From assembly GCF_018141545.1 (NCBI RefSeq), contig NZ_CP064356.1, positions 620,001 to 684,000 on the forward strand: 64,000 nucleotides of DNA, read 5' to 3'. How positions within the stretch are numbered: position 1 is the stretch's first letter; every line of letters begins with the position of its first letter. The notes beneath the pieces are model-generated. The model made no database searches, had not been told where the DNA came from, and saw nothing but the letters and a program-made list of their open reading frames with translations. Positions 19,395-35,325 of this stretch are shown one piece after another. The DNA is from Miltoncostaea oceani (GTDB taxonomy: Bacteria > Actinomycetota > Thermoleophilia > Miltoncostaeales > Miltoncostaeaceae). The position numbers and the translations under genes are program-made.

Positions 19395-22007
19395 GTGTTG
19401 ACGCTACGAGCAGCCAAGGGAGCCGACTACTACGAGCGCGCCGAGTTCGCGCGCGACGACTACTACGCCGAGCGCGGGCAGGTGCGCGGGACGTGGGAGG
19501 GACGCGGCGCCGAAGCGCTCGCCCTCACCGACGGGCCGGGGGACGGCGCGCTGGGCGCGCTTCTCGAGGGACGGGATCCCATGACCGGCGAGGATCTGCC
19601 CGGGCGGCGCACCCGCCGCGGGGGCAACGTCGCCTTCGACCTGACGTTCGCCGCGCCCAAGGGGGTGAGCGTGCTCGCCGCGGTCGGCGACGAGGCGGTG
19701 CGGGAAGCCATCCTCTCCGCGTACGCCGAGGGGGTGCGCGCGGCGCTCGACTACCTCGAGCGGCGGGCCTGCTTCGTGCGGCGCGGCCACAACGGCGTGA
19801 GGGTCCTTCGCGGTGAGGGCTTCGTCGGCGCCATGTACCTGCACGAGATGGCCCGTTCCGGCGATCCGCACCTGCACGCGCACCTGGTGATCGCCAATCG
19901 GGTGCGCGGCGAGGACGGCCGGTGGACGGCACCGGACATGCGGCCGGTGTTCGCCGAGGCAAAGACCGCAGGCTTCATCGCCGAGGCGGTGGCCCGCGCG
20001 CGTCTCAGCGAGACGGTCGGCCTGGAGTGGGAGGAGACCACGAATGGCTCGATCGACCTCGTGGCGGTGCCCGCGTCGGTGCGCGAGCACTTCTCATCCC
20101 GCCACGCGGAGATCGTCGAGCTGGCACACGCGCGCGGCTACACCGGCGCGGCGGCGATCGAGGCGATCCAGCGTGAGACCCGCGACCGAAAGCGCGTCGT
20201 CTCCCGTGAGCGCGCGACGGCCGAGTGGCGCGCGCGGGCGGCCGAGCATGGGTTCGGCGACCCCGAGATCGCGCGGACCATCGGCGCAGCGCCGTCGCGC
20301 TCGCCGGCGGCGTACATCGAGGGCCTTCGCGAGTGCCGGCGCCGAATGGAGAGCCCCGCCGGGCTCACCCAGCGCGCGTCGTCGTTCACCCGCCGCGAGG
20401 TCATCCAGGAGCTCGCCGACGCCCACCCAGAGGGCATCGGCGCGCGCGCCCTCGAGCGCCTCGCCGACGACTTCCTCGCGGCACGCTGCGTGCCACTCGC
20501 GCCGGCGGGCGCGGCGCCCGGGCGCGGTTACCAGGAGGCGCGCTACACGACCCCCGACATGCTCGACGTCGAGACTCGGCTCATCGACACAGCTTGTGCC
20601 CCGCCGATCCACCCACGGCTGGCGAGTCCTCTCCATGTCGAACGCGCGATCGCCGCCAGGCCCACGCTCGGCGATGACCAGGCGGCAGCCGTCCGCCACC
20701 TGTGCTCAGGACAGCCGCGCACGCGGCTGATTGAGGCGCGTGCGGGCTCTGGCAAGACGTTCGCCCTGGAGGCGGTGCGGGAGGCATACGAATCATCGGG
20801 CGTCGCGGTGGTCGGAACCGCCTGGCAGGCCCAGGCGGCCGAGGTGCTCCAGCGCGACGCCGGCATCGCCTCCGAGACGACGGCGCTCATCCTGGAGCGC
20901 GCAGCGCGCGGACAGGAGGCCGTCCCCGGGGGTGCGGTCGTCGTCTGTGACGAGGCCTCCACCATGCCGACGCGCGCTCTCGAGCGACTCGTCCAGGTGG
21001 TGGCGTCGCACGGTGGCCGACTGATCCTGGTCGGCGACAGGGCGCAGCTGCCACCGGTCGACGCCGGTGGCGGCTTCGCCGCCCTCTGCGACCGGCTCGG
21101 CGCGGCCGAGCTCACCGAGAACCGGCGCCAGCGCACCGAACTGCAGCGAGCCGTGGCCGCGCGGCTCGCCGAGGGGCGCGCCGGCGATGCCATCTCCCTC
21201 CTCGCCGAACACGGCCGTCTGCAGGCCTTCGCGGACGGCGCCAACGCCCGGCGCGCGCTGATCCGCTCCTGGGCGCAGACATCGCTTGCGGATCCCGCCA
21301 ACGCCATGATCCTCGCCCACGACCGACGCGAGGTGCGTCTGCTGAACGAGATGGCCCGCGCCGAGCTCGACCGCGCGGGACGGCTGTCTGATCGCCGCCT
21401 CGTGGCGGCCGGCCGCGAGTGGGCGATCGGCGATCGCCTGCTCTGCCGGCGCAACCACTACCGGCTCGACGTGCGCAACGGCACCCGCGGCGTCGTCACC
21501 GGACTCGACGAGCGTGAGCGGGCGCTCACCCTCTGGACCGACGATGGACGCGAGGTGGCCCTTCCCGCCGGCTACCTGCGCCACGCCGAGCACGGCTATG
21601 CGATGACCGGACACGTCAGCCAGGGCACGACCGTGGACCGCACCTACCTGCTCGCGACTCCCGAGCGAGGCGGCAAGGAATGGGCGTACGTCGCCGGCTC
21701 ACGCCAGCGGATCGACCTGGAGGTCTACGCGATCCACACAGACCCCGAGACGCTCGGGGTTGCCCTCGAGTGCGCCTGGACGCGGACGCAGGCAAAGGGG
21801 CTCGCGGTCGACCTCGCCGCGGCTGGCAGTCGGGGCATCGAGGGAAGGAAGCCCAAGAGCGATCTCACACGCTTTCCATCCGGAGGGTCGAGGGCCGAGA
21901 TCAGCAACCAACGGGAGAGGCCCGAGCCGGATCTGCGGCCCTCCGAATCGGCCTGGTCGTACCCCCGCCAGGGCTCTCTTGGGCGCGGGCTTAGTCGGGA
22001 TCTGTAG
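19395..22007 (+). CDS. MobF-family conjugative relaxase with TraI-type helicase
   Basis: An 870-residue TrwC/TraI-like protein. The relaxase domain starts MLTL and has tyrosine pairs Y12-Y13 and Y23-Y24, then FDLTFAAPKGVSVL and the metal-binding three-histidine motif DPHLHAHLVIANR (H159, H161, H163). The helicase part has Walker A in EARAGSGKTFAL, Walker B in VVCDEAS, then LVGDRAQLPPVDAGGGF, LTENRRQ and the late motif YAMTGHVSQGTTVDRTYLL. It would nick oriT, stay bound to the 5' end and unwind the strand for transfer. It starts at GTG 19395 behind a TATAAT box. It is somewhat shorter than the largest TraI proteins and has no extra C-terminal domain. Confidence 0.92.
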   Translation: MLTLRAAKGADYYERAEFARDDYYAERGQVRGTWEGRGAEALALTDGPGDGALGALLEGRDPMTGEDLPGRRTRRGGNVAFDLTFAAPKGVSVLAAVGDEAVREAILSAYAEGVRAALDYLERRACFVRRGHNGVRVLRGEGFVGAMYLHEMARSGDPHLHAHLVIANRVRGEDGRWTAPDMRPVFAEAKTAGFIAEAVARARLSETVGLEWEETTNGSIDLVAVPASVREHFSSRHAEIVELAHARGYTGAAAIEAIQRETRDRKRVVSRERATAEWRARAAEHGFGDPEIARTIGAAPSRSPAAYIEGLRECRRRMESPAGLTQRASSFTRREVIQELADAHPEGIGARALERLADDFLAARCVPLAPAGAAPGRGYQEARYTTPDMLDVETRLIDTACAPPIHPRLASPLHVERAIAARPTLGDDQAAAVRHLCSGQPRTRLIEARAGSGKTFALEAVREAYESSGVAVVGTAWQAQAAEVLQRDAGIASETTALILERAARGQEAVPGGAVVVCDEASTMPTRALERLVQVVASHGGRLILVGDRAQLPPVDAGGGFAALCDRLGAAELTENRRQRTELQRAVAARLAEGRAGDAISLLAEHGRLQAFADGANARRALIRSWAQTSLADPANAMILAHDRREVRLLNEMARAELDRAGRLSDRRLVAAGREWAIGDRLLCRRNHYRLDVRNGTRGVVTGLDERERALTLWTDDGREVALPAGYLRHAEHGYAMTGHVSQGTTVDRTYLLATPERGGKEWAYVAGSRQRIDLEVYAIHTDPETLGVALECAWTRTQAKGLAVDLAAAGSRGIEGRKPKSDLTRFPSGGSRAEISNQRERPEPDLRPSESAWSYPRQGSLGRGLSRDL

Positions 22008-22014
22008 TAGCCGT

Positions 22015-23208
22015 TCAGGGTTTGCTCGGCGCCGGCAGCTGCCCGGAAGCGACCATCGCGGCCCCGCCGATCACCAGGCCCGGCAGGTAGCCGCCGGAGC
22101 GATCCCAGAGCGGCACGCGCGTCGGACCTATGGCGTTGCTAGCGGCCCCGATCATGATCGCCAGGCTCATCGGCCCGCGCACGACCAGGTGCTTGTCCCG
22201 GCCGAGATCGGAGAGATCCGCGAGGAGGCGGGCCGCCTGCTGCGCCAGGCCGCCGATCTGGTCCTCGCTGAGGACGTGCGGGGCGTGAAGCGTGATGATC
22301 TCCTCGGCGCCGATTTCATCGGCGTACCGCCCCGCGGCGCCGTCGATCGGCTCGGGCGCCGAGACGACGACCAGCACCGGCCCCTCCCCGCCCCGGGCCT
22401 GACGGGCCGGGACGACCGAAAACCCCGAGGCGAGCATCTTGCTCGAGACGGTCATCTCGCGTCCCCCGAATCGCTGCGCGACCTCGAGCTGGAGGCCACT
22501 CACCGCGCGCCACTGGTATCCGAGGGCCGCCGCGAGCGGTGCGTAGAGGTCTCCCGTGATCCTCACACGGCGCACGCCCGCCTCGCGCAGCGCTGACTCG
22601 AGGTTCCCGGCGGCGTGCGTGACGCGCGCGCCGTCGATGCCGCTCGTGGTCTCCTCCACGACCGCCCGCCAGTCCACCGCGACCTCGGCGGTGTGGTCGG
22701 GCACGGCCGTGCATGAGAAGGAGATCGTGATCGGAGCCGAGCCGCGGGCGACGAGCGCATGGCGCACGTAGTCGCCGGCGGCGCGGCGCCACAGTGTGGG
22801 ATCGTCCTCGCCGTCAGCTCGGAGCACCCCGTTCAGTCCCCCGAGGGCTGCCAGGCTGCCGCGCCATCGCGGCAGGCAGAGTCTCGGCCGCCGCGGCAGG
22901 TCGCCGGGGCGCAGGTCGCTGAACAGCGGCACCACCGGGAACCCGCCCCGCCGGCCGCGCCCCAGCGCGGCCGGGATCTCGACCTTGCGGATGAAACGTG
23001 ACGTCATCGAGGCCGGGGTTCCGAACCAGATGAACCCGCCCGCGTCTTCGGCGATCACCCGCCGGATCTCGCCCTCGCTCGGGCTCCCCAGACGCAGGTC
23101 GTTGACGTCCTGCCACCCGTCGGCCCCCATCAGGCTGAGTTGCGCGCTGAACTCCTCCAGGCGCAGGCGGTCTTCGCGGGCGTGACACAGGAACGGGCGC
23201 AGGCTCAT
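22015..23208 (-). CDS. CBASS effector with TIR and SAVED domains
   Basis: A 397-residue protein. The N-terminal TIR domain runs about 1-130: FLCHAREDRLRLEEFSAQL, WFGTPASMTSRFIRKVEIPAAL with the likely NADase glutamate E77. The C-terminal SAVED domain (about 165-385) has VLVVVSAPEPIDG, then DKHLVVRGPMSLAIMIGAASNAIGPTRVPLWDR and YLPGL, a CARF-like fold that senses cyclic oligonucleotides. In known TIR-SAVED effectors a cyclic trinucleotide drives filament formation and NAD+ depletion, killing the infected cell. It is the last gene of the operon, with ATGA overlap to the E2-like gene. A region of 7 bases separates its stop from the convergent relaxase gene. Confidence 0.9.
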   Translation of the reverse strand: MSLRPFLCHAREDRLRLEEFSAQLSLMGADGWQDVNDLRLGSPSEGEIRRVIAEDAGGFIWFGTPASMTSRFIRKVEIPAALGRGRRGGFPVVPLFSDLRPGDLPRRPRLCLPRWRGSLAALGGLNGVLRADGEDDPTLWRRAAGDYVRHALVARGSAPITISFSCTAVPDHTAEVAVDWRAVVEETTSGIDGARVTHAAGNLESALREAGVRRVRITGDLYAPLAAALGYQWRAVSGLQLEVAQRFGGREMTVSSKMLASGFSVVPARQARGGEGPVLVVVSAPEPIDGAAGRYADEIGAEEIITLHAPHVLSEDQIGGLAQQAARLLADLSDLGRDKHLVVRGPMSLAIMIGAASNAIGPTRVPLWDRSGGYLPGLVIGGAAMVASGQLPAPSKP

Positions 23209-23843
23209 GCCGCCGCCGCCACCCCGTGCGGGGCCTCGTCGCCGGGCCAGAAGCCCTCGATGCGCCAGATGTGCTCCCGGGCGACGTGGGCCCGAGCGAG
23301 GTCGGCGAGGGCTACGAGCCCGTCCTCAGGCTCCCAGCGCCGGTGCGACGGGTCGCCGGGGTAGTAGAGGCAGAGCTCGTGCCCGTGCGGGCCCGAGAGG
23401 GCGTTGCGGTGCGGCGAGGCAACCCCCGCCCCGCTCGGTCCGTCCAGGCACACCACGACCGCCCGGCGGGCGACCAGCGGCACCAGCGCCACGAGCCGCA
23501 ACCGCCCGAATGGCCCCTCGGCGATGAAGCGGTAGGCGCGCGGTCGGCCCCAACCCCGCCCGGCCACGACGGCGCGCAGGAGCGGCATATCCTCGAGGGC
23601 CTCGGCCGGAAGGGCCACCAGTCCTCCCTCGGTGAGCCCGCGCTCGATCACCCCCCTCACCGTCGGACGCAGCCACCACGGGAGCCACCGGTGCCCCGGC
23701 AGGTGAGGAGGATCCGGGCGTCCGATCCCACCTCGGCCAAGGGCCCGGCGACAGAGCGTGAGCGGGTCGAGGGGCGCGGTGGGCCGCTCCGCCGGCGACG
23801 GCGGCGCTGGCCTGCGCCTGCGCCTGCGCCTGCGCCTGCTCAT
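23205..23843 (-). CDS. E2-like conjugating-enzyme protein of type II-short CBASS
   Basis: A 212-residue protein. After an Arg tract and Pro-rich linker, residues 45-205 fit the bacterial E2 family. Features are YRFIAEGPFGRLRLVALVPLVARRAVVVCLDG, then HGHELCLYYPGDPSHRRW with the candidate catalytic cysteine C158, and LADLARAHVAREHIWR...WPGDEAPHG. Related proteins act on the CD-NTase and raise its output by conjugation. No E1/JAB gene is present, so this is the short form of type II CBASS. The start (ATG 23843) lies one base after the CD-NTase stop. Confidence 0.75.
   Translation of the reverse strand: MSRRRRRRRRRPAPPSPAERPTAPLDPLTLCRRALGRGGIGRPDPPHLPGHRWLPWWLRPTVRGVIERGLTEGGLVALPAEALEDMPLLRAVVAGRGWGRPRAYRFIAEGPFGRLRLVALVPLVARRAVVVCLDGPSGAGVASPHRNALSGPHGHELCLYYPGDPSHRRWEPEDGLVALADLARAHVAREHIWRIEGFWPGDEAPHGVAAAA
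23811..23839 (-). repeat. Hexanucleotide tandem repeat in the E2-like gene
   Basis: Four exact copies of CCTGCG plus a partial fifth, encoding nine consecutive arginines (residues 3-11) on the minus strand. Copy-number change would add or remove Arg pairs without shifting the frame. Confidence 0.75.
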
Positions 23844-23844
23844 C

Positions 23845-24867
23845 TCAGGCCCGCCACGCCCGGGGCGACTTGGCGATGGCCCGCGCGCCGGGCGCGAGGC
23901 TGAGCCCCGCGCCGGCGACGCCGGCCGTGCCTGCGCGCAGGGAGGCCGCAACCGTCCCGGGGCGCTGGCCGGGGCCGGGGAAGGTCGGGCCGAGCAGCTG
24001 CTCCCAGGCCGCGAGGGCCTCCTCGGACGGCAGGTCGAGCGCGGCTCGTGCCGCTTCGGCGGCGGCCGCCGCGACCGGGATCGCCCGGGCCCGCCGGTCG
24101 TCGGCCAGCAGCTCGAGGACGTCCCGCTCGGGCCAGCCGGGGTCGGGGAGAGGGCGGCGCTCGCCCAGGTGCTCGGCGAGGGCCTCCAGGGTGAGGGCCA
24201 TGCCCTGGTCGTAGTCGTGCTCACGGCCACCGAGGGCGCCGTGTGTCGCGGCCTCGATGGCGTAGGACGGCAGGAGCTTCTCGTCGCCCTCGACCATCCG
24301 GCAGTTCCAGCTCTTGGCGATCCGGACCGCCCGGATGTAGGTCCCGCCGCTGGAGGCATTGGCATCGGCCGCGGCCTGGATCTGGCCCCGTGGGTGCTCG
24401 AGCGTCCAGTCGCACAGCCCCTCCTCAGGCTTGTTCCGGCAGAGCCACAGGCGATCGTCGAGGTCGTGCTCGCGGGCCGGCACCAGATCGACCTCGATCG
24501 GGGAGCCCTCGATCACGCAGGTGACCGCCCGGACGCCGATCTTCTTGACGCGCCGGACGATCTTGGAGCCCGCCGCGGCTCGGGCGATCCGGGCGAGCTC
24601 CTCGTCGGGCGGGGGGCGGTGGCGGACATCGCCCACCACCAGCATCACATCGACATCACCGAGCGGGGCGATCTGGGTCTTGCGGCGATACGAGCCGCTG
24701 AGGAACGTATCCGCGACGGGGATGCCGAGCTGCTCGGCGACCTGTTCGCGCACGAGCGGGTGGATCCGCTTGGCCTCGGCATTCTGGTCGCCGGAGACGC
24801 GGATGGCGCGCTCGTGGGCCTCGAAGGCCTCCTGGACGCTCGAATCAGCGGAAACGGTGATGCTCAT
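23845..24867 (-). CDS. CBASS cyclic-oligonucleotide synthase (CD-NTase)
   Basis: A 340-residue nucleotidyltransferase of the cGAS/DncV-like superfamily. The active site is GSYRRKTQIAPLGDVDVMLVV (GS at 58-59, D71 and D73) with the third aspartate in IEVDLVPA (D127). The fold continues with an OAS1-C-like helical domain (YIRAVRIAKSWN and PSYAIEAAT). It would make a cyclic nucleotide upon phage infection to activate the TIR-SAVED effector. The ATG at 24867 has AAGGAGCACCCG upstream. It is the first gene of the operon, transcribed from the TGTGAA-rich divergent promoter region. Confidence 0.9.
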   Translation of the reverse strand: MSITVSADSSVQEAFEAHERAIRVSGDQNAEAKRIHPLVREQVAEQLGIPVADTFLSGSYRRKTQIAPLGDVDVMLVVGDVRHRPPPDEELARIARAAAGSKIVRRVKKIGVRAVTCVIEGSPIEVDLVPAREHDLDDRLWLCRNKPEEGLCDWTLEHPRGQIQAAADANASSGGTYIRAVRIAKSWNCRMVEGDEKLLPSYAIEAATHGALGGREHDYDQGMALTLEALAEHLGERRPLPDPGWPERDVLELLADDRRARAIPVAAAAAEAARAALDLPSEEALAAWEQLLGPTFPGPGQRPGTVAASLRAGTAGVAGAGLSLAPGARAIAKSPRAWRA

Positions 24868-24901
24868 CGGGTGCTCCTTCAGGATCGGGTCGTCGTGCCG
24901 A

Positions 24902-24947
24902 TGTGAACTATAGTGTGAAGTAGAGTCATTGTGAAGTATGGTGTGAA
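24902..24947. promoter_or_regulatory. Divergent promoter with four TGTGAA repeats
   Basis: TGTGAA occurs four times in the same direction (24902, 24914, 24930, 24942), as two pairs with 12-base spacing separated by 16. A TATAGT -10 box for the minus-strand CBASS operon lies at 24907-24912. A TATGGT -10 box for the plus strand (24937-24942) would start transcription at the ATG at 24951. A regulator bound to the repeats could switch both operons. The helix-turn-helix gene at 25769 is a candidate. Confidence 0.6.
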
Positions 24948-24950
24948 CCG

Positions 24951-25769
24951 ATGCCAGGAACCCACCCCACCCCACTCTCCGGGCCGATTCCGGCCACCAT
25001 CCCGCTGAAGCCACCGCCGCTTGCGAAGGTCTTCGTTCAGGTGCGCTTCTCGCCGATGGCGCGGATCGTCCGCGACGAGTTCTTCGCTGACTTCCAGGAG
25101 GCGCTGGCCGACGAGTATCCGTCCGCGCTTAAGGAGCACGAGCTCTTCCTGCCGGCTGGCCCAGCGGCCGAGCCGCAGCGCGCCGAGCTGTGGCGTATGC
25201 GCGACCAGGAGGACCATTGGAAGCTCACGCTGGCCACCGCCTTCGTCACGCTCGAAACCGACGCGTACCCCGGTAAGGACCTCTTCTTTCAGCGCCTCGC
25301 CAGGGTCCTCGAAGCCGTAGCGACTCACGTCGAGCCGAGGCTCGTGGAGCGCGTGGGCGTCCGCTACATCTGTCGGCTCGAGCAGGAGGACGACCTCGTC
25401 CGGCTTCCCGAACTCGTGCGGCCGGAGGTGGTTGGAGTCGCCGCAGTGCCTGGAGCGCAGCCAAAGCTGTTGCTGACCCAGTCGCAGTATCCGCTTGAGG
25501 AGCACGTCTGGCTCGTCGCCCGCTGGGGCATCGTCCCGCCGAACTTGATGATCGATCCCGGCCTGCCCGGACCCGAGAACGGCCGAAGCTGGATTCTGGA
25601 TGTGGACGTCTACGAGGAAGTCGAGCGACCCTTCGACGCCGAAGCTCTTCGGACTCAGGCGCTGCGTTTCTCTCGGCTGCAGTACCGGTTCTTCCGGTGG
25701 GCGATCGAGCCCGCTTTCCTCCTGCGCTTTGGCGCGGATCCCGAACTTGTCCACCGGCTGGAGGTCTGA
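24951..25769 (+). CDS. TIGR04255-like protein
   Basis: A 272-residue protein fitting the sporadically found TIGR04255 family by length and pattern. There is an N-terminal PLAKVFVQVRFSP strand, then LTLATAFVTLETDAYPGKDLFFQRLARVLEAVATHVEPRLVERVGVRYICRL, and a C-terminal domain ending in a FRWAIEPAFLLRFG segment. Biochemical function is unknown for the family. It is transcribed divergently from CBASS, probably as a leaderless message. Its stop overlaps the start of the next gene, so the two are co-translated. No membrane segment is visible. Confidence 0.65.
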   Translation: MPGTHPTPLSGPIPATIPLKPPPLAKVFVQVRFSPMARIVRDEFFADFQEALADEYPSALKEHELFLPAGPAAEPQRAELWRMRDQEDHWKLTLATAFVTLETDAYPGKDLFFQRLARVLEAVATHVEPRLVERVGVRYICRLEQEDDLVRLPELVRPEVVGVAAVPGAQPKLLLTQSQYPLEEHVWLVARWGIVPPNLMIDPGLPGPENGRSWILDVDVYEEVERPFDAEALRTQALRFSRLQYRFFRWAIEPAFLLRFGADPELVHRLEV

Positions 25770-26425
25770 TGAGCCCCACCCTGACCGAGACGAGCAGGGC
25801 CTGGTGGCTAGTCGGCAATGACGCCCACGTCTACGACCCAGCGATGTTTCTGTCGCTGCCGGTCGCCCACACCGGCTGGGATTTCAACCGGCCGCTCGTG
25901 CTGCCCGAGGCCATCACCGCCTCAAAGCCGGCGTGGACGCTTTGGGTTGAGGCGACGCACTCGCCCGCCCCGCCTGACGCGGCTGCCCTGATCAGCGAGC
26001 TGCGCGACCGGACCGACCTCACCTGGGAGGAGTGCGCGCGCTTGTTCGGCGTGTCGCGGCGCACGGCCCACTACTGGGCGAAGGGCGCCAACGCGATGAC
26101 GGCGGCGCACCAGCGCCGACTGAGCCAGATCCTCGAGATCGTGCGGGACTTCGATGCGTCAGCGACACAGATGCAGGCGGCATTGCGCTCGAGCGTCGGC
26201 GGCCGCTCGATCATCGAGATCATCGCGATGGGCGCCTCGCCAGCCCTGATCAGGGACCACCTCGCGAGCCAACTCGGCCCCGGCCGCACGCGCCGCGCCG
26301 AGCCCTGGCAGCCTCTCGAGCTCCTGCCCGAGCAGCCGCGCGACCCGCGCCATGTGCCTGCCCGCTCGCTCTTGCGGTCCGATGCGGCGCCGGTGTTCGA
26401 CCCTGAGGACCCGACGAGCCGGTGA
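25769..26425 (+). CDS. Helix-turn-helix protein, partner of the TIGR04255-like gene
   Basis: A 218-residue protein. A central Xre-like helix-turn-helix (LTWEECARLFGVSRRTAHYWAKGANAMTAAHQRRLSQILEIV, about 90-130) follows a non-recognised N-terminal region (WWLVGNDAHVYDPAMFLSLPVAHTGWDF). The C-terminus is helical, then Pro/Arg-rich. The ATG overlaps the preceding TGA by one base. It may be an antitoxin or autoregulator acting on the TGTGAA repeats. That is inference from its position. Confidence 0.65.
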   Translation: MSPTLTETSRAWWLVGNDAHVYDPAMFLSLPVAHTGWDFNRPLVLPEAITASKPAWTLWVEATHSPAPPDAAALISELRDRTDLTWEECARLFGVSRRTAHYWAKGANAMTAAHQRRLSQILEIVRDFDASATQMQAALRSSVGGRSIIEIIAMGASPALIRDHLASQLGPGRTRRAEPWQPLELLPEQPRDPRHVPARSLLRSDAAPVFDPEDPTSR

Positions 26426-26461
26426 CCGACCTGAGTCCCGCCGAGAGCCGACGGTGGACCC

Positions 26462-27367
26462 GTGGTCGATGACCAGGCGTTCAAGGAACGTGTCCTCGAG
26501 CAGGGCTGGGGTCCCGGAGCGCTGATCCCCTGGAGGGGCGATCTGGCGCACCAGATCGCTACCGCCGGCCTTCGTTCCTGCGACCTGCGGGCAGACGCCG
26601 GCGGACCCGTCCAGGACGAAACTCCGCCCGACGGACAGTTCCTGCTGGTCTCGCAACTGTGCGACCTGACGGCACCGGCCGCCTCTGAGCCCTTCGCGGT
26701 CGCGCTACCAGCGGGGGCATGGGACCCCGAGCCGGATCGCCCGCTCCCGCGACGCAACTCGGCCAGGTGGCTCGTCTTGGACGCAGATGCGCGCTTGGTC
26801 GCGAGCCAGGCGCGGATGATCACCTTCGACAAGCAGCGACTGCCGGATCTCGAGCCGCTGCACGTTCCCCTCAATCCGCAACTGATCTCAACCTGGTGCG
26901 CTCGCCGATGGCGCCGTACGCCGCTGCCGGACGCGTTCACGCGGACGATTCAGCCCGCCCTCGAGGACGCGTTGGAGCGCGTCGACCATGCGACCGCGCT
27001 AAGTGCCACGATCTGCTGGAGAACCCAGTTCCTGTTACCTGGGGCCGACGGCGTGCGAGGGGTGAGCCTGATCGCCGTCTTCGACCCGGATCTGATCGAG
27101 TCGGTCGAGTTCTCCGGCTACGTCGCGGCGGTCACCGAGCAGGTGGACCGTCTCCGCGCCCGCTACGAGCAGCGGTTCGCCAAGCAGGTGACCGGATTCC
27201 AGCCGTATCAGCTCATGCCCTCCCAGCCGGCTTCGACGACGCAATTCTCGCTTCAGATGGCGCTCGACACCGAGATGATCAGCTTCGACCATCTCTCACC
27301 GGACCTCGGCGGGGAAGCGGCGGACGGTCCGGAGCGACCTGAGCTTCGCGAAGAGGACGTCGTTTAA
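26462..27367 (+). CDS. Unrecognised protein with an SQLCD motif
   Basis: A 301-residue protein that I cannot assign. The N-terminal third contains WRGDLAHQIATAG and FLLVSQLCDLTAPAASEPFAVALPAGAW. The S-Q-x-C-D motif beside a strand resembles a conserved site in several uncharacterised families. A central RTIQPALEDALERVDHATALS helix and a beta-rich stretch (FLLPGADGVRGVSLIAVFDPDLIE) follow, with an acidic C-terminus. It has no signal peptide or membrane segment. It is 36 bases after the helix-turn-helix gene and closes the trio. Confidence 0.55.
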   Translation: MVDDQAFKERVLEQGWGPGALIPWRGDLAHQIATAGLRSCDLRADAGGPVQDETPPDGQFLLVSQLCDLTAPAASEPFAVALPAGAWDPEPDRPLPRRNSARWLVLDADARLVASQARMITFDKQRLPDLEPLHVPLNPQLISTWCARRWRRTPLPDAFTRTIQPALEDALERVDHATALSATICWRTQFLLPGADGVRGVSLIAVFDPDLIESVEFSGYVAAVTEQVDRLRARYEQRFAKQVTGFQPYQLMPSQPASTTQFSLQMALDTEMISFDHLSPDLGGEAADGPERPELREEDVV

Positions 27368-27401
27368 GGAGAGGAGCGCCCGAGACCCCAAAGCGGCGGA
27401 C

Positions 27402-27426
27402 GGGGCCTGGGGGGGCTTGGGTGGGG
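27402..27426 (+). other. G-quadruplex motif
   Basis: Four G-runs (4, 7, 3 and 4 bases) separated by CCT, CTT and T on the plus strand, in the 181-base gap after the trio. It would also be present in the RNA. It sits inside an imperfect inverted repeat (AGCGGCGGACGGGGC against GCCCCGCCTCCGCT at about 27445). Confidence 0.5.
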
Positions 27427-27548
27427 TGACGAGCGAAGGCACGCCCCGCCTCCGCTGCGGGCCACCACCGGTCTCGCGATCGACATCGCGATGACGTAGA
27501 TTCCCAACGTCATAGATTCACAATGCGGCTCTGGGCACTGGAGAGGTC

Positions 27549-28088
27549 ATGCCGGTCTTCAAACAACTCAAGTTCTCGCTTAGTCTCCCCCTCGGGGTTG
27601 GCGGGATCGAGGGTACTTGGGAGCCTGACGACGTTGAGCGCAAAGCTGCCTGGGAGATGTACGTCGAGCTGATCACGCGCGTGACGATCGTCGAGCTGAG
27701 GCCCCGCCAGGGCCTTAATCGTGAGGCCCTCCAATCTCTGCACTCGCTCTTTCAGACGACCAGAGACATTCTTCGGTCGTATGGTCCGCGCATCGCCCAA
27801 CCCAAGGGTAGCGGTGACTACTCCTTTGGTTTCCTTGCTGCTGTCATCCTCAACGACGTCCTGCGACCCGTGCTTACCGAGTGGCACCCCAGGCTTGAGG
27901 ACTGGGAGGCGGGGCGTCCGCAGGGCCTATCGCGAACTGAGCATGAGAAATCATGGGAGCACACACCAGAACTGCGGAAAGCCCTCAGCGACATCAGAGA
28001 GCCCTTGATCGCATACGCAGACCTTCTCGCGGCGGTTTCAGAGGTTCCGCGGTTGCACAAAGACGCCCTCGAGGCGCGACACCTTTGA
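27549..28088 (+). CDS. Hypothetical protein
   Basis: A 179-residue, mostly helical soluble protein (KAAWEMYVELITRVTIVELRP, LHSLFQTTRDILRSYGPRI, FLAAVILNDVLRPVLTEWHPRLEDWE). I do not recognise it. The start has GGAGAGG upstream. Base composition from here to about 30160 is visibly richer in A and T than the tra genes, as for cargo from elsewhere. It could be part of the neighbouring TIR system or independent, since 172 bases separate it from the next gene. Confidence 0.55.
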   Translation: MPVFKQLKFSLSLPLGVGGIEGTWEPDDVERKAAWEMYVELITRVTIVELRPRQGLNREALQSLHSLFQTTRDILRSYGPRIAQPKGSGDYSFGFLAAVILNDVLRPVLTEWHPRLEDWEAGRPQGLSRTEHEKSWEHTPELRKALSDIREPLIAYADLLAAVSEVPRLHKDALEARHL

Positions 28089-28260
28089 CCGCCAAAGGGT
28101 TCGCAGCCTCCCCGCTTCCTAAGTCTGGCGCCCGCTCCTGCCGAGCCGTCGTATCCCAGCGAGGAACAGAGCGACACGGAGGACGCACAGCGCCCCGAGG
28201 CTCCTGGTGGTGGCGGTCACTTCCTAACCGGCCGAGCGTTTCCTCGTGCACGGTCTTTCG

Positions 28261-28884
28261 ATGAGGCCGACCCGTTACGGGGATGCTCCCAAACGGTTCG
28301 CTGTGATCGGTACCCACAATGCTGGGAAGACAACGATCTGCCACGGGGTTACTGCGAGGCTTCGAGCACAGGGCCTGGATGCTACGTATTCACCCGAGCC
28401 ATCCCGAACGAGCCGCTTTCTGGCTTCGGGGATCAGGAACATCACCTCACAGCTGGATCTCTTTGTCCGCACGATCGCGAACGAGCTCGAAGCGGGACGT
28501 CAAGCGGCGATCGTCATCTGCGACCGGTCGATCCTTGAAGTGCTCGCCTACAGCGCTCAAATGACAGGCGCGGATGGTCAAGAGGCGAGGCTCGCGAAGG
28601 CCATGGTTGCATTCGCCGAAGAATACGTACAGTCCTACGATGTGTTGTTTCGGGTGGGCTGGCGCTTCCCGATGGCGGACTCTAGCGATCCCATCCGGAT
28701 CGGCGACGCTGGCTTCCAGGAGGCGATCGACACCTCGACTGATGCGTTCGCGTCAAGGTTCGGCTGCGCGGTCGTTCCGCTTCAAAGCCCAGAAACGGCT
28801 GTGATGGACATCGAGCGGGAGATCCTCCGCCGCTTGGCCGCAGACACGGCGCCCTCGGAATCCAGCGGAGCAGAGTTGATGTGA
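28261..28884 (+). CDS. P-loop ATPase/kinase-like protein
   Basis: A 207-residue protein with a clear Walker A, FAVIGTHNAGKTTICHGV, then a thymidylate-kinase- or NadR-like layout. Features are YSPEPSRTSRFL, a VICDRSILEVLAY segment (Walker B-like with DRS, as in deoxynucleoside kinases) and FRVGWRFPMADSSDPIRIGD. It is probably an AAA_28-type or nucleotide-kinase fold. The start could also be a GTG at 28246, adding 5 residues. The last codons overlap the TIR gene by 4 bases (GTGA), so the two proteins are made together and probably act together. Confidence 0.7.
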   Translation: MRPTRYGDAPKRFAVIGTHNAGKTTICHGVTARLRAQGLDATYSPEPSRTSRFLASGIRNITSQLDLFVRTIANELEAGRQAAIVICDRSILEVLAYSAQMTGADGQEARLAKAMVAFAEEYVQSYDVLFRVGWRFPMADSSDPIRIGDAGFQEAIDTSTDAFASRFGCAVVPLQSPETAVMDIEREILRRLAADTAPSESSGAELM

Positions 28885-30161
28885 CTCCGCTCCACGGCCA
28901 GCGTGACGTCTTTGTCTCATATGCGAGCTCGGACCGTGACCGCGTCGTGGCACCCATTCTTGGTGCTCTTGATCAGCGAGGGATCTCATACTGGGTCGAT
29001 TCCCACGAAATGCGCTGGGGTACCGACATCGTCGCGGCGATTGAGTCGGGCCTACGCTCCGCTGAGACGGCGCTGGTCGTGTTCAGTACTGCCTATGTGG
29101 ACGCCCCTTGGGCACGTCGGGAGTACTCGGCGCTCGTCAGCATGGAGATTCGCGGAGAGGGCGCACGCATTCTCCCGCTCGTGGTTGGGGATGACGACGA
29201 GATAGCGAAAGTCCGAGCGGCGTTCCCCCTCGTGCACTCGCGGCTGTTTCACCGGTGGGTGAACGACGCGGACGAAACCGCAAGGAAGATCGCCGACGTC
29301 CTCTCGCAGGGCTACCGAATGCAGGAAGCGCTTCGCTTGGATGACGAGGAGATGTTGATCTCCACAGCGTTCTGGGCGGGTCGCTTTAACGAGTCCGTCG
29401 TACGGTCTCAGACACTGCTCGAGCTCGCCCTTGCACGGCGCGACTACGAAACGGCTGCTCTTGGTCTCGCCAACCTGATTCTCATCGCGCGAAGTCGAGG
29501 GCAGGTAGGTCACGTGCGCTTCCTGCTTCAGAGGTATATGGGTGACATCCCGGTCCGACGCCTTTCTGCGGCGTTCGAGTATCGACTAATGAAGGAGTTG
29601 TTCGTATACTATTACGAACAGGAAGCGTTTGATCTATCTGCGCGCTACCTGACGCGTATGGAGAGGCTCGATAGTGAGCTGATGACGTTTACACCGTCAG
29701 ACGACTGGATTCCGGGCACAGTGCGTTGGCGGAAGGCTCACCTATTGTGGATGCAAGAGCCAACGAGGCGGCGGCTCCGGGAAGGTCTTGCCGTCGCCCA
29801 AGACGGGGTCACCTACCTCACGGGGGTACTGCGAGAGAACCCGAACTCCGCCGGGCTTGCAAGCGCGATCTTGAACGTAGGCTGGCTTTATGTGCTAGCC
29901 GAGAATCCAGTGGCTCTGGACTACTTTGCGATGGCTCAGGAGCACGCCAGGGGGTTCAGTCCGCGCACTAGGTCCGAAGCGGAACTCGGTGAGATCGTGG
30001 CGATGAGGTGGCTACGCGTGTTAAACGATGGCGAGGCTGAGAGTCGAGCGAGAGGAGTTCGCGAGGACCTGCGGCGCCTGGGCTTCCCACCACGAACGTA
30101 CGCGTTCCTGGGCAGGGTTGCAGACTGGCCTGTCGTCCGGAGGCTGGTCGCCGGCGTCTGA
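28881..30161 (+). CDS. TIR-domain protein with helical (TPR-like) repeats
   Basis: A 426-residue protein. The TIR domain (about 8-135) has DVFVSYASSDRDRVVAPI, YWVDSHEMRWGTDIVAAIESGLRSAETALVVFSTAYVDAPWARREYSALV and ARILPLVVGDD. The likely NADase glutamate is E81. The remaining 290 residues are helical pairs such as RDYETAALGLANLILIARSRGQ and AFDLSARYLTRMERL, resembling tetratricopeptide repeats that could sense a ligand or oligomerise. A GTG at 28881 overlaps the upstream stop. The likely role is abortive infection by NAD+ loss, with the P-loop protein as sensor or modulator. That role is inferred. Confidence 0.75.
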   Translation: MTPLHGQRDVFVSYASSDRDRVVAPILGALDQRGISYWVDSHEMRWGTDIVAAIESGLRSAETALVVFSTAYVDAPWARREYSALVSMEIRGEGARILPLVVGDDDEIAKVRAAFPLVHSRLFHRWVNDADETARKIADVLSQGYRMQEALRLDDEEMLISTAFWAGRFNESVVRSQTLLELALARRDYETAALGLANLILIARSRGQVGHVRFLLQRYMGDIPVRRLSAAFEYRLMKELFVYYYEQEAFDLSARYLTRMERLDSELMTFTPSDDWIPGTVRWRKAHLLWMQEPTRRRLREGLAVAQDGVTYLTGVLRENPNSAGLASAILNVGWLYVLAENPVALDYFAMAQEHARGFSPRTRSEAELGEIVAMRWLRVLNDGEAESRARGVREDLRRLGFPPRTYAFLGRVADWPVVRRLVAGV

Positions 30162-30190
30162 GCCTGCACCCTCAGACGTCCCTGCTGATG

Positions 30191-30696
30191 CTAGGAGAAG
30201 CGCTCCGGGTGGTTCTCTAAGGCAAAGGCCGCCAGGGAGCGCACTTGGGCGAAGGTGTCGAGACCCGGGATCTCGTCATGTGAGAACCACCTGCAAGCCT
30301 TCACCTCATCCCTCTGAGGCTTCAGACTACTAGGGATGCCCGGGGGGCCACGAAGAAGAACTGAACAATTGCTGGCTTACGGAAGCCCGTCGTCTCGACG
30401 TCCACATAGAAGGGCAGGGGTTCGGCGATAGCGCCCGGATCGTCCGGATGAATCGCTGGTGTGTCCCTGCAGGCACGTACCGTGATGCCGGTTTCCTCAT
30501 GCGCCTCGCGGCAGGCAGCCTGCGAGAAGGTTTCGCCCGGTTCGAGGTGCCCGCCGGGCGGCACCCAGCAGTCGAACCTCGAGTGGTGCACGAGGAGGAC
30601 GCGTTGCCGCTGGACGAGGTAGGCGGAGGCAATCATGAGAAAGCCCGCGTCGACAACGCCCGACCCAGAGTCTATGTAGATGTCGTGAACGGCCAT
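30191..30696 (-). pseudogene. Nudix hydrolase broken at a homopolymer
   Basis: The first frame runs from ATG 30696 (MAVHDIYIDSG) through the Nudix box GGHLEPGETFSQAACREAHEETGI to FFFVAPRASLVV and a stop at 30322. One extra C in the six-C run (six G at 30342-30347 on the plus strand) would restore VAPPGIPSSLKPQRDEVKA. The frame would then continue to RSLAAFALENHPERFS, stopping at 30191, which is a normal Nudix C-terminus of the right length. So this is one gene with a one-base loss in a homopolymer: mutation, slippage switch or sequencing error. Substrate unknown. The start lacks a ribosome binding site. Confidence 0.75.
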
Positions 30697-30790
30697 GGGC
30701 GGATGGTAGCCGGACCAGGTCGGCAGCGCGCAGGCGCCATCCGCGCCGCCGTGGGCCGCCTCGTTGCTGGCGATCTGCCGGGCCACGCAC

Positions 30791-30830
30791 CCTCCGGCCG
30801 CCGGTGGCACCCTCCGGCCGCCGGTGGCAC
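30791..30830. repeat. Two exact 20-bp tandem repeats
   Basis: The unit cctccggccgccggtggcac is duplicated head to tail, about 100 bases upstream of the Nudix start and inside the gap before the antirestriction gene. Each unit has an inner near-palindrome (CCGGCCGCCGG). Confidence 0.7.
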
Positions 30831-31020
30831 GTGTGCACGGCCGCCCGCTCAGTATGAGCCGGTTGCCCCGTCTAAGCTAAGTACACGCTGGGGCTCGCGG
30901 CGAGTCCGGGAGACCCACAGCGTCGACGTGGTGTTGGGGGCCTCTCCGCGGAGCGTCGCCAGCGGGCGGGCACGGCCTCGCTGGGCCTGCACCGGAGGAG
31001 ATGTCGAGGCGCGTGAACCC

Positions 31021-31956
31021 TCAGCGGGTCCGCACGGGAGCCCGGGCACGCTCGTCCGCGATCTGCGGCGCTTGGGCGAGGGCGGCGTCCTCCCAGAGCG
31101 GCGCGAGCGGGCGCTGCTCGGGTTCGTGTCCGAGCCGGAGCGCCGACTCCAGCGCCGAGGCGATGCGGTGTGTCGCGTCGGCGTATGAGGCGAGCGTCTG
31201 TGGGGCGGCGTCTGCCCATCCGGCGACGTACGGCACCGATTGGCGTCCGGTGTCGAGGCCGACGCCCGCGAGAGTGATGTGGGCGGCGGTCTCGGCGACG
31301 ACCTCAGCCCCCGCGCGACCGAGCTCGTCGTAGCGCGCGCCGTGGACGTGGGCCAGCTCGTGGACGAGGACGGCGACCTCTCCGTTCGGCGCGAGCGTCG
31401 ACGCGAGGACGATGAGGTGATGGTGGTGGTCGACGTACCCCTGGGATCGCCCGGGCATGACATCGTGCCGCTCCACCCGGTAGCCGGCGCGCGCCGCATC
31501 CTCCTCGAGGTGACGGAGCAGGTGAGCGTGGGACGCTCCCGTGAGCGGCGCGATCGGCGGCGGCTCCGGGAGGGGAGGCCCCTCGGTCTGGGAGATGTCG
31601 AACACCGGCACCAGCACGAACCTGCGGACCGCGGCGGCCTCCTCGCCAGTCTTCCCGTCTCGCTCGCGCCGCACCGAAGGCGCCCAGATGCGCAGGGCCT
31701 GCTCTCCTCGGCGCACCTGACGCTCGAGCGCGATCCAGCGCCGGTAGCTGGCGACCGTCGTCGCGTCGGGCCGCTGGGAGAGGATCAGGAGCGTGTTCGT
31801 GAGCGAGTAGCCGCGAAGAAGCGCCCGCGCCTTCGCGAAGCGCTGCCAGCCCTCCGAGCTCCGTAGGTCCTCGCAGGCCGCCTCGAAGCGGGCGCGTGCC
31901 TCCTCGCGGCGCGCCTCGGCCCGGCCACGGCCGGTCTCGGGTGGCGGGTCGGTCAA
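31021..31956 (-). CDS. ArdC-type antirestriction protein (ssDNA-binding plus zincin)
   Basis: A 311-residue protein. The N-terminal ArdC domain (GWQRFAKARALLRGYSLTNTLLILSQRPDATTVASYRRWIALERQVRRGEQALRI) binds single-stranded DNA. The C-terminal domain is a zincin with HELAH (VAVLVHELAHVHG) and a downstream AETAAHI glutamate. ArdC proteins protect entering plasmid DNA from host restriction. The only upstream start that fits is TTG at 31956, overlapping the coupling-protein stop (TTGA). It is thus the distal gene of the transfer operon and made with it, fitting early expression in recipients. Confidence 0.8.
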   Translation of the reverse strand: MTDPPPETGRGRAEARREEARARFEAACEDLRSSEGWQRFAKARALLRGYSLTNTLLILSQRPDATTVASYRRWIALERQVRRGEQALRIWAPSVRRERDGKTGEEAAAVRRFVLVPVFDISQTEGPPLPEPPPIAPLTGASHAHLLRHLEEDAARAGYRVERHDVMPGRSQGYVDHHHHLIVLASTLAPNGEVAVLVHELAHVHGARYDELGRAGAEVVAETAAHITLAGVGLDTGRQSVPYVAGWADAAPQTLASYADATHRIASALESALRLGHEPEQRPLAPLWEDAALAQAPQIADERARAPVRTR

Positions 31957-33656
31957 CCCGTCGTCCCAGCAGTTCTGGCCGCCCGGCGCAGGGCCCGCTC
32001 GCGGTACCAGGGTCGAAGCGACAGGCGCGCCGGCGGCAGATGCCCGTAGACGAGGATCGCCTCGCCCGGCGGTATCCCCCGCACGGTGTCGGCGGGTGCC
32101 AGCCGCTTCTGGCGCGTCCCCCGGGTGCGGCTGGCTGATCCGTGCTCGCCCCGGGTGTGGCTCTCGTAGCCGACCTCCTCCTCGCCGAGCGCCCGCCCGA
32201 GGTAGTCGAGAGTGCGCGCATCGCTGATGCCCGACAGGAAGAGCTTGGCCCGGTGGTTGGCGAGGATCGTGTCGGCGGCCTCGCCGTAGCGTCCTCGCGC
32301 CTGGGCGAGGTCCTGGAAGACACTCACGACCTGGATGCCCTGCCCGGCGGCCGTCGCGGCGATCTGGGGGAGGTTGCGGATCGGCGCGGTGTTGGCCGCC
32401 TCGTCGAGCACGAGCAGCAGCGCGGGCTCGCAGGGGTTCCCCGCGGCGGCCCGGGCGTAGGCGGCTTCCACGATGTGCTCGATGAGTCCCGCGAAGAGCG
32501 GAGCGAGGCGCTCCTGATCCTTCGCGGGGGCGATCACATAGAGCGTGCTCTGTCCGTCGAGGACCGCCTGCTGGTCGATCTGCGGCAGGGTGGTGCTCCG
32601 CAGAACCGCCGGGTCGGAGAAGGGCGCAAGCACGGCCTCGGCTGTCGCGTAGACCGACGAGAGGGTCCGCTCCTCCCGGCGGCAGGTCGCGACGAAGGCG
32701 GCGTGTGCGTCCGGCTCGCCGAGCTCTACGAGAATCCTGCTGACCGCCGTCTGCTCGCCCGAGTCGAGCCAGCCGACGACATCCCGCATCGAGCCGCCGT
32801 CGCGGCCGGCGGCGGCGAGGAGCAGCGGTGCGATTAGCTTCGCCGCCATCTGCAGCCAGAACTCCGCGTCGCGCCCGCCCGCCGCCCCCTGCGCGCTCGT
32901 GAGGTTGTGGGCCATCCGGCGGGCGTCCGGCCATTCGGCGCACGAGGCGACCGGGTCCCATCCGACGAGCCCCTCGTCGTCGAGCCGCGCGGCGCCAGTC
33001 GGGTCGTAGATCAGCGCCTGGCCGCGAGCCCGTCGCGCCGCCAGGGTGTGGTCGAGGAGATCCCGCTTCACGGACACGGCCACGACCGGTCCGGTGGCCT
33101 CGAGGATCGCGGGGATCGCGAGACCGGCGGTCTTCCCCGACTGACTTGGCCCGACTACGACCGTGCTCGCCCGCGACTCGCCGGCGACGAGGTGCCGCCC
33201 GAGCCGCCCGAGCGTCAGCCGTCCGGGCTGTGCCCTCCGGGCGATCAGCGTCCGCAGGTCGCGTGCCCGCGCCCAGCGGGCGCCCTCGGGAGGTCGACGA
33301 CGGAGGGCGTCAACGCCGGCGATCCGTCTTACGAGTGAGATCCCCGCCAGCGCGAGCCCCGACAGCGTCGCCACCGCCAGCGCGAGGGTGCCGTAGAAGC
33401 CCGCCGGGCCGGGCAGCCGCGCGCGGTCGCCCGCCGGCCAGGCCGAGGCCGGATCGGAGAGCCGCTCGGGCATCCGTGCGAGGACCCCCGGCATGTCGGC
33501 GAGCCCGGCGGCAGGCGCGCCCGAGCCGAAGGTGACCCCCGCGAGGTGGCCGAGGCCCCATACGGCGAGCGCCAAGCCCACCGCGCCGCCCGCGAGCGCG
33601 AGCCCGAGGGTGACCCACGGGTCCTCGGGCGCGCGAGGTGCGGGCGGCCGGGTCAT
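31953..33656 (-). CDS. VirD4/TraG-type coupling ATPase
   Basis: A 567-residue type IV coupling protein. Two N-terminal membrane helices lie at about 15-40 and 88-110. Walker A is VVGPSQSGKTAG (about 168-178) and Walker B LLLVLDEAANTAP. The late motif QVVSVFQDLAQARGRYGEAADTILANHRAKLFLSG is typical of TraG/TraD hexamers. It links the relaxase-DNA complex to the secretion channel. The ATG at 33656 overlaps the upstream stop by 4 bases. It precedes ArdC and follows a small helical protein. Confidence 0.9.
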   Translation of the reverse strand: MTRPPAPRAPEDPWVTLGLALAGGAVGLALAVWGLGHLAGVTFGSGAPAAGLADMPGVLARMPERLSDPASAWPAGDRARLPGPAGFYGTLALAVATLSGLALAGISLVRRIAGVDALRRRPPEGARWARARDLRTLIARRAQPGRLTLGRLGRHLVAGESRASTVVVGPSQSGKTAGLAIPAILEATGPVVAVSVKRDLLDHTLAARRARGQALIYDPTGAARLDDEGLVGWDPVASCAEWPDARRMAHNLTSAQGAAGGRDAEFWLQMAAKLIAPLLLAAAGRDGGSMRDVVGWLDSGEQTAVSRILVELGEPDAHAAFVATCRREERTLSSVYATAEAVLAPFSDPAVLRSTTLPQIDQQAVLDGQSTLYVIAPAKDQERLAPLFAGLIEHIVEAAYARAAAGNPCEPALLLVLDEAANTAPIRNLPQIAATAAGQGIQVVSVFQDLAQARGRYGEAADTILANHRAKLFLSGISDARTLDYLGRALGEEEVGYESHTRGEHGSASRTRGTRQKRLAPADTVRGIPPGEAILVYGHLPPARLSLRPWYRERALRRAARTAGTTG

Positions 33657-34075
33657 CGGCCTCCTCCCGCCGTCTTCGCGGCCGGGCGCGGCGCCCGTGG
33701 ACGGGCCGCCCCGCGATCCTGTGCGCGCTTGCGGCGCTCGGCCTCGAGCTCGGGCCGGGCGCGCTCCAGGGCCCGCTCCACCTGCGCGAGGACGTCGCCG
33801 AGGCGGGGCAGGGCGTCGGCGGCGATCTCGGGGGCGAAGCCGACCGCCCGCATGCCCTCCAGTCCGACGATCGCCCGCCCCAGATCGCGCACCGCCAGGC
33901 AGAAGCGGTTGTCGAGGCGCGGCGAGCCCTGGAAGCCCGCGACCAGCTCCGCCGCCGCCTGGGCGCGGCGGGCCAGATCGGCCTCCTCGGCGCGCGGAAG
34001 CAGCGGATCGCCGATCGTCGCCGCTTGGCTCGCCGGGGCGAGAGGCGTCGCGGCCGGGGTGTGGTCGCTCATCAT
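33653..34075 (-). CDS. Small helical transfer-operon protein
   Basis: A 140-residue soluble protein of unknown family. It is predicted mostly helical (ADLARRAQAAAELVAGFQG, ALPRLGDVLAQVERALERARPELEAERRKRAQDRG) with a basic Ala/Pro tail. Two adjacent ATG codons (34075 and 34072) follow GGGAG. The first overlaps the VirB4-like stop by one base. It lies between the two motor ATPases, so an adaptor role is plausible but unproven. Confidence 0.6.
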   Translation of the reverse strand: MMSDHTPAATPLAPASQAATIGDPLLPRAEEADLARRAQAAAELVAGFQGSPRLDNRFCLAVRDLGRAIVGLEGMRAVGFAPEIAADALPRLGDVLAQVERALERARPELEAERRKRAQDRGAARPRAPRPAAKTAGGGR

Positions 34076-35325
34076 CAGTCTCCCGGGTCGGGGGTCGACA
34101 AGGGGCCACGCATTCGGCCGTCGGTGTCCACGAGCGACCACTCGCGGCGCGACAGACGGTGGTCAACGAGAAACGAGCGCCCGCCGACTTTCCAGAGCGC
34201 GGCACCCCGCCAGAGGCCCGCGACGTGCTCGGCCTCGGTGGCCGACAGGCCGACCAGCTCGCGCGTAGCGGCGAGGTCGGCTGGGCTCTGCTGGAGGATC
34301 ACCCGGGTCTCGGAATCGGAGAGCAGGCCCTCAGCGATCCGTGTCTCGCGCGATCCCTCGGCTCCGGCGGACCGTAGATCGGAAAGGCGGTGGACGACCA
34401 GGATGTTGGCCACGCCGTAGGCGCGCGCCAGCTTCCAGGAGCGCTGCAGGAAGGCGGCGGTCGCCGGGTCGGCGAGCACGGCCCAGCCCTCGTCGAGTAC
34501 GACCAAGCGCTTGATCCCGTCGGCACGAGCGAGGCGTCCCGACAGCCAGGCGCTCACGCAGACCATCAGGATCCCCTGGGCGGCCGATCCATGGAGGGCG
34601 GACAGGTCGAAGACCACCACCGGCGTGTCGAGGTCGACCTGGTGAGAGGTCAGTCCGTCGAACATGCCCGCCAGATCGCCCTCGCAGAGCCGGCGCAGCT
34701 CCAGGGCGCAGGCCCGTCCCTCCTGGGCGAGCCCGGCGGCGTCGGTCCCGAGCGCGACGGCCGGCTCGGGGGCGGGGTGAAGGAGGTGGTGCTGGACCGC
34801 GGGAAGCGTCGGCGCGTCTGAGGCGGCCGCCGCCCGGTAGGCGACGTCGAGGGCGGTGTGCTCCTGCGGGCCGAGAGCCCGCCGCAGCGAGGCCGAGACG
34901 AGCGCGGCCAGGAGGGCAACGCGCTCCTCGCGCCCGCCCGCCGCATCGAGCGGGTTGAGGCGCACGTGCCCACCGGGAATCAGGCGGATCGGCCGGCCGC
35001 CGAACCACTCGGCGAGCGGCCCGTACTCGCCCTTGGGGTCGATCACGATCGAGCGCCGGCCGAAGACCGCCTGACGGGCCAGGTAGGTCTTCACCAGCGC
35101 CGACTTGCCGAAGCCGATCTGCCCGACGATGAGCGCCGAGGGGTTGGTGATAAGCCCCAGCTCGTAGAGGACGAAGGGGTCGAAGCAGAATGCGGCCCCG
35201 GAGTAGACCTCGCGACCGATGTAGACCCCCCGCCCCCCGAGGCCGCCCTCGCCCATGAACGGGTAGGCCGCCTGCAGGTGCGCGCTCGTCGCCCGGTGGG
35301 CGCGGCGGCGCGAGCGCGTCCTCAC
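34075..35325 (-). CDS. VirB4-like ATPase, motor domain
   Basis: A 416-residue protein corresponding to the C-terminal P-loop half of VirB4/TraC. Walker A is LIVGQIGFGKSALV (about 65-78), followed by SIVIDPKGEYGPLAEWFGG. Walker B is RLVVLDEGWAVL and the later motif is LVVHRLSDL...SETRVILQQ. The N-terminal half of a normal VirB4 is absent and may be supplied by the upstream SCO6880-like gene. It powers the secretion channel. The start is GTG at 35325, overlapping the previous stop (GTGA). The start is basic (RTRSRRRAHR). Confidence 0.85.
   Translation of the reverse strand: MRTRSRRRAHRATSAHLQAAYPFMGEGGLGGRGVYIGREVYSGAAFCFDPFVLYELGLITNPSALIVGQIGFGKSALVKTYLARQAVFGRRSIVIDPKGEYGPLAEWFGGRPIRLIPGGHVRLNPLDAAGGREERVALLAALVSASLRRALGPQEHTALDVAYRAAAASDAPTLPAVQHHLLHPAPEPAVALGTDAAGLAQEGRACALELRRLCEGDLAGMFDGLTSHQVDLDTPVVVFDLSALHGSAAQGILMVCVSAWLSGRLARADGIKRLVVLDEGWAVLADPATAAFLQRSWKLARAYGVANILVVHRLSDLRSAGAEGSRETRIAEGLLSDSETRVILQQSPADLAATRELVGLSATEAEHVAGLWRGAALWKVGGRSFLVDHRLSRREWSLVDTDGRMRGPLSTPDPGD

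Follow-up and report, generated by a model that had tools for sequence, protein, structure and literature searches.

Do three tightly packed genes beside a CBASS operon in Miltoncostaea oceani make up a defence or toxin-antitoxin module, and is it one of a kind described before? The genes, designated here A, B and C, lie on the plus strand of the window, that is, the whole stretch of 64,000 nucleotides that was analysed, and the CBASS cyclase gene precedes them on the opposite strand:

24951..25769, plus strand: gene A, TIGR04255 family protein, 272 aa
25769..26425, plus strand: gene B, helix-turn-helix (HTH) protein, 218 aa, distant relative of MbcA-type antitoxins
26462..27367, plus strand: gene C, 301 aa, a divergent representative of an unnamed family marked by (S/T)QxCD and DK motifs
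23845..24867, minus strand: CBASS cyclase (SMODS), neighbour with a common control region, start at about 24867

The coordinates that the initial annotation gave for the three open reading frames are confirmed on the window sequence. The genes had also been described as overlapping, which holds for A and B alone: these share one base within TGATG, the start of B falling on the last base of the stop codon of A, whereas 36 nt separate B from C, whose start codon is a GTG at 26462. The promoter region said to be common with CBASS is borne out, as 83 bp lie between the two operons, and the identity of the neighbour is supported by a PADLOC cyclase match (E 3e-34) and a Pfam SMODS match above cut-off.

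A three-gene operon spread across phyla

Entry into the family was gained by tblastn of B against plasmids, which returned three weak matches, in Chroococcidiopsis (Cyanobacteriota), Kocuria (Actinomycetota) and Sphingomonas (Pseudomonadota). Each is flanked on one side by a TIGR04255 gene and on the other by a hypothetical gene that is a relative of C, and these plasmid-borne C relatives have the motifs QGD, (S/T)QTCDIV and DLDR..TVEK in common. The C protein alone found no clear relative in plasmids, viral contigs or 246 genomes of the host phylum. A search with the C alignment yielded 45 genome loci in at least seven phyla, and profiles of A, B and C placed on these C-found loci recovered the three genes in order and on the same strand in 40 of them. 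Co-occurrence of the three families, suspected from the single copy in the window, is thus near-universal among loci found with C. The arrangement characteristic of type II toxin-antitoxin systems, fixed adjacent genes with the antitoxin candidate (B) before the toxin candidate (C), is present in the same 40 loci. The five exceptions comprise two loci truncated at the end of a contig (L038, L055), a pair of degraded remnants from Rhizobium (L045, L052), and L058, in which a divergent HTH open reading frame separates A from C. Carriers include an integrative conjugative element (ICE), plasmids and viral contigs: six plasmids have all three genes and a seventh a broken C (L012), and C occurs on three viral contigs, two of which have A, B and C.

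Pairwise distances computed for each of the three proteins correlate with one another (Mantel r 0.77–0.83, reached in 0 of 2000 permutations), which indicates that the module travels as a unit. Profiles built without the window rows still find the window genes, with E values of 3.5e-72 for A, 3.7e-26 for B and 3.1e-5 for C; window C is therefore a true, albeit divergent, member of its family. In four loci (L014, L025, L040, L051) the reading frame of C is broken and those of A and B are open, and in none is the reverse seen, a count that is small, comes from a C-seeded search and may include assembly errors among the broken copies. Such a bias is as expected if C is costly and B and A protect from it.

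Two further observations concern unusual copies. Rhizobium genomes (L012, L045, L052) contain frameshifted C remnants that lack accompanying A and B genes. A Desulfovibrio bin (L028:4023-8819) has two B-like HTH genes between A and C, with an apparent AbiEii-like nucleotidyltransferase between them.

A predicted toxin fold in gene C

Window C contains the SQLCDL motif reported by the initial annotation, which could name no family for it, and belongs to no family in Pfam, NCBIfam or PADLOC, its 40 relatives reaching marginal scores at most. Five residues are invariant in the family (G26, Q65, C67, D68 and K124 in window numbering). A typical member, L020, was modelled with AlphaFold2 in place of the divergent window protein (pLDDT 93), and residues 12–163 of this model align with whole MazF and CcdB chains, which predicts a MazF/CcdB barrel. 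The top structural match, to MazF-mt3, has a VIA Z of 10.0 over 106 of 109 residues; all 50 best structural matches are MazF or CcdB toxins, and Foldseek agrees.

At the level of sequence profiles the resemblance between C and MazF is weak (hhalign E 0.05), with an alignment that is reliable around the DK motif alone; there, DLDR.MTV.K of C is placed on Q.RT.DK.RL of MazF, the expected place, and window C reads ARMITFDKQRL at this position. The MazF/PemK family PF02452 matches none of 41 members of the C family, nor anything in the host genome. Residues clearly corresponding to the catalytic Arg and Thr of MazF were not seen in C, so RNase activity is not implied by the fold.

Three actinomycete A-B operons (L079:2369-3100, L080:6377-7150, L081:5039-5788) end in C-like genes without a Pfam match, in which SHDC or AHPC replaces SQTCD. 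These are likely to be divergent C subfamilies.

Gene B and the antitoxin MbcA

B was initially annotated as a helix-turn-helix protein. Its direct HTH matches are sub-threshold: window B scores 16.7 bits against the Xre-like HTH family PF20432, below the gathering score of 25.8, and members of the B family reach E 5e-4 at best. Stronger grounds come from the B family profile, which is significantly related to the antitoxin MbcA (6fkg_C, E 8.3e-6) over 88 of 115 residues, comprising the HTH and the C-terminal, toxin-binding domain. Antitoxins are typically shorter than B.

A conserved operator and a predicted CBASS promoter

Two 18-bp direct-repeat sites and one predicted promoter occupy the 83-bp gap between A and the cyclase gene:

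24902..24919, minus strand: operator copy 1, TTCACACTATAGTTCACA, 0 mismatches to TTCACA-N6-TTCACA
24930..24947, minus strand: operator copy 2, TTCACACCATACTTCACA, 3 nt upstream of the A start codon
24907..24935, minus strand: predicted sigma-70-like promoter towards CBASS, TTCACA-17-TATAGT, consensus match

Of 49 loci, 26 have a perfect TTCACA-N6-TTCACA upstream of A, and the number rises to 35 if one mismatch is allowed (one plasmid is counted twice and a few loci are near-copies); at the latter tolerance, none of 3,253 control windows taken from these loci contains the pattern. No half-site spacing other than 6 gives comparable counts. With one mismatch allowed, the 4.54-Mb host genome contains exactly two sites, both of them between A and the cyclase gene, and none was seen outside the region upstream of A in any locus examined. 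The operator that a type II system has at its operon promoter would accordingly be represented by this conserved DNA site, the putative target of B. Operators of antitoxins are usually palindromes; the half-sites here are direct repeats.

In the Rhizobium group the half-sites change to CTTTAC (variant TTTAC) and the recognition helix of B changes too, C[ST]RQ replacing SRR, a joint change that would be expected if B is the binder and that comes from one lineage. One of the actinomycete loci described above, L081, has TTCCCA operators. The possibility that phages carry decoy operators was considered and is not supported: the 18 exact matches on viral contigs do not adjoin A, B or C in any case, and many lie inside coding genes.

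The promoter predicted on the CBASS side matches the sigma-70 consensus at 10 of 12 positions, compared with 0.1 such matches expected in shuffled sequences, and is the sole match there. Its -35 element is a half-site of copy 2 and its -10 element lies within the spacer of copy 1. As the operator is duplicated across the gap and overlaps this promoter, B should also control CBASS, and its binding in the gap would be predicted to block CBASS transcription.

A model for the module

The operon, its operator, the toxin fold of C, the likeness of B to MbcA and the joint inheritance of the three genes are computational results; from them we infer the binding of B, the toxicity of C and its neutralisation, the control of CBASS and a part in defence. 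The toxin-antitoxin side of the initial proposal gains from cross-phylum co-occurrence, from the fold, from B and its operator, and from restriction and Druantia genes near several copies. The favoured reading, to which a probability of roughly 0.6 is assigned, is that A-B-C is a three-component, type II-like toxin-antitoxin operon repressed by its own product B, whose operator has captured CBASS. C would be the toxin, its MazF/CcdB barrel extended by a C-terminal domain. B would act as both antitoxin and repressor, binding ahead of A at the paired TTCACA half-sites, which are spaced 12 bp apart, repressing the operon and holding C. The least certain step is the part of A, which may be needed by B or C as a partner, perhaps in sensing or in stabilisation. 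Were B lost or overwhelmed, through phage takeover or loss of the mobile element, C would be freed, growth would stop and repression would be lifted. In the window, with a duplicated operator over the CBASS promoter, B would govern CBASS as well.

The overlap of the window operators with the CBASS promoter would also suit a module that is mainly a regulatory switch for immune operons, after the manner of CapH/CapP, CapW or CapK/CapS, in which B is the repressor, A and C lift its repression on sensing damage or infection, and C is no toxin; immune operons with a repressor pair encoded upstream have been described (PMC13373217). Such a switch seems unlikely, given that A-B-C stands alone in most loci, that in these loci no further operator with at most one mismatch occurs beyond the region upstream of A, that C has a toxin fold and that neither A nor C has a WYL, peptidase, GHKL or STAS match in Pfam or NCBIfam. 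A bolder extension of the toxin-antitoxin reading is offered tentatively: with B seated on two operators over both promoters, phage action on B or A might free the MazF-fold C and turn CBASS on at once, making the locus a coupled, two-layer immune unit with a previously undescribed toxin family at its core.

Gene A and the wider TIGR04255 family

TIGR04255 is listed as a sporadic family of unknown function. The placing of A in it by the initial annotation is amply supported, with 117 bits against an NCBIfam cut-off of 30 over profile positions 2–252 of 252. The AlphaFold2 model of A (pLDDT 94) has arginine kinase, creatine kinase and McsB as its best structural matches, with Z up to 7.9 over most of the protein, and its conservation is complete or almost complete at several arginines and two aspartates. 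A could on this evidence be an enzyme of guanido-kinase-like fold that modifies B or C, placing the toxin-antitoxin pair under post-translational control. This is improbable: a Z below 8 can reflect a common arrangement, and comparison of the A profile with guanido kinases gives nothing (E 0.12). A SecB-like fold is absent among the structural matches listed for A, a listing that does not exclude one.

The notion that every TIGR04255 gene belongs to an A-B-C module was discarded, as a B- or C-like neighbour is found in 9 of 20 other TIGR04255 loci of the host phylum. Two TIGR04255 genes without B or C (L087:5415-6730, L091:5794-6935) are followed by small genes of unknown kind (186 and 143 aa), with restriction-like genes near. 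The family may have several partner types.

Relation to known systems

The closest parallels to C are MazEF and CcdAB, in which, as here, a protein of MazF/CcdB fold (in C, the N-terminal domain) has a DNA-binding partner encoded upstream and the operon its own operator. C departs from them in approximately 120 extra residues, in the lack of a PemK or CcdB Pfam match and in an invariant Q-x-C-D and K of its own; its partner B does not resemble MazE or CcdA, and the operon opens with a third gene, A. B aligns with MbcA over the HTH and the domain that follows it, as would a relative of MbcTA and of the Xre/MbcA/ParS antitoxins. Yet its partner is a MazF/CcdB-fold protein and not a RES/MbcT toxin, and, unlike the Xre/MbcA/ParS antitoxins, it has extra N- and C-terminal stretches and reaches no Pfam cut-off. 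Toxin-antitoxin-chaperone (TAC) systems (PMC9098466) likewise have three genes, a DNA-binding antitoxin and a third protein as possible partner; here the third protein is a TIGR04255 member without SecB-like assignment and comes first in the operon.

CapK/CapS, CapH/CapP and CapW (PMC13373217) resemble the window in having a DNA-binding repressor beside an immune operon, with sites in a common control region. The protein families are unrelated, however, and A-B-C, for the most part a free-standing unit, contains a protein of toxin fold; the WYL, peptidase, GHKL and STAS domains of CBASS regulators are matched in none of A, B and C in Pfam or NCBIfam. CapK/CapS is a conceptual neighbour and not a relative (PMC13373217).

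The literature searched contains no mention of TIGR04255 and no MazF-fold or three-component system of the A-B-C kind. No earlier description was found of the C family, the A-B-C architecture, the cross-phylum operator or the control shared with CBASS, the parts being distant relatives of known kinds. If correct, the model names a widespread toxin family missed by current databases and gives TIGR04255 a function. The near-invariance of the operator across phyla, judged to be uncommon in a repressor that is mobile, allows the system to be found and tested with ease, and the control region common with CBASS provides a direct, testable link from a toxin-antitoxin module to a second immune system.

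The module in its genomic setting

The window copy belongs to an ICE, between a TrwC relaxase (19395-22007) and a type IV secretion system coupling protein (31953-34205), with CBASS (SMODS cyclase and SAVED-TIR) to its left and a kinase-like AAA gene and a TIR gene to its right. This position, together with further copies on conjugative plasmids and viral contigs, is what would be seen if A-B-C were an addiction module only, maintaining an ICE, plasmid or prophage, its closeness to CBASS accidental and its part in defence nil. That reading is slightly less likely still than a regulatory switch: several copies adjoin HsdR (L023), DruE-like (L026), type III methyltransferase (L040) or type I methyltransferase genes, and gene A would be superfluous in a simple addiction module. 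For the toxin-antitoxin operon preferred here, an anti-phage role is plausible from position. In most loci A-B-C is free-standing, with neighbours that are varied or on the opposite strand, and enrichment in defence islands is an impression.

The interval 19395-34205 reads as cargo of a conjugative element, with CBASS, A-B-C and the TIR gene set between flanking genes for TrwC, a TraG/VirD4 coupling protein and an ArdC-like antirestriction/peptidase. Between the CBASS cyclase and the SAVED-TIR effector, an open reading frame on the minus strand (23205-23844) ends in GHELCLYYP...FWPGDEAPHG, presumably the ending of an E2-like CBASS accessory protein. To the right of C, at 28246-30161, the kinase-like AAA gene overlaps the TIR-domain gene (TIR_2, E 1.7e-19), and the pair is possibly another two-gene defence system.
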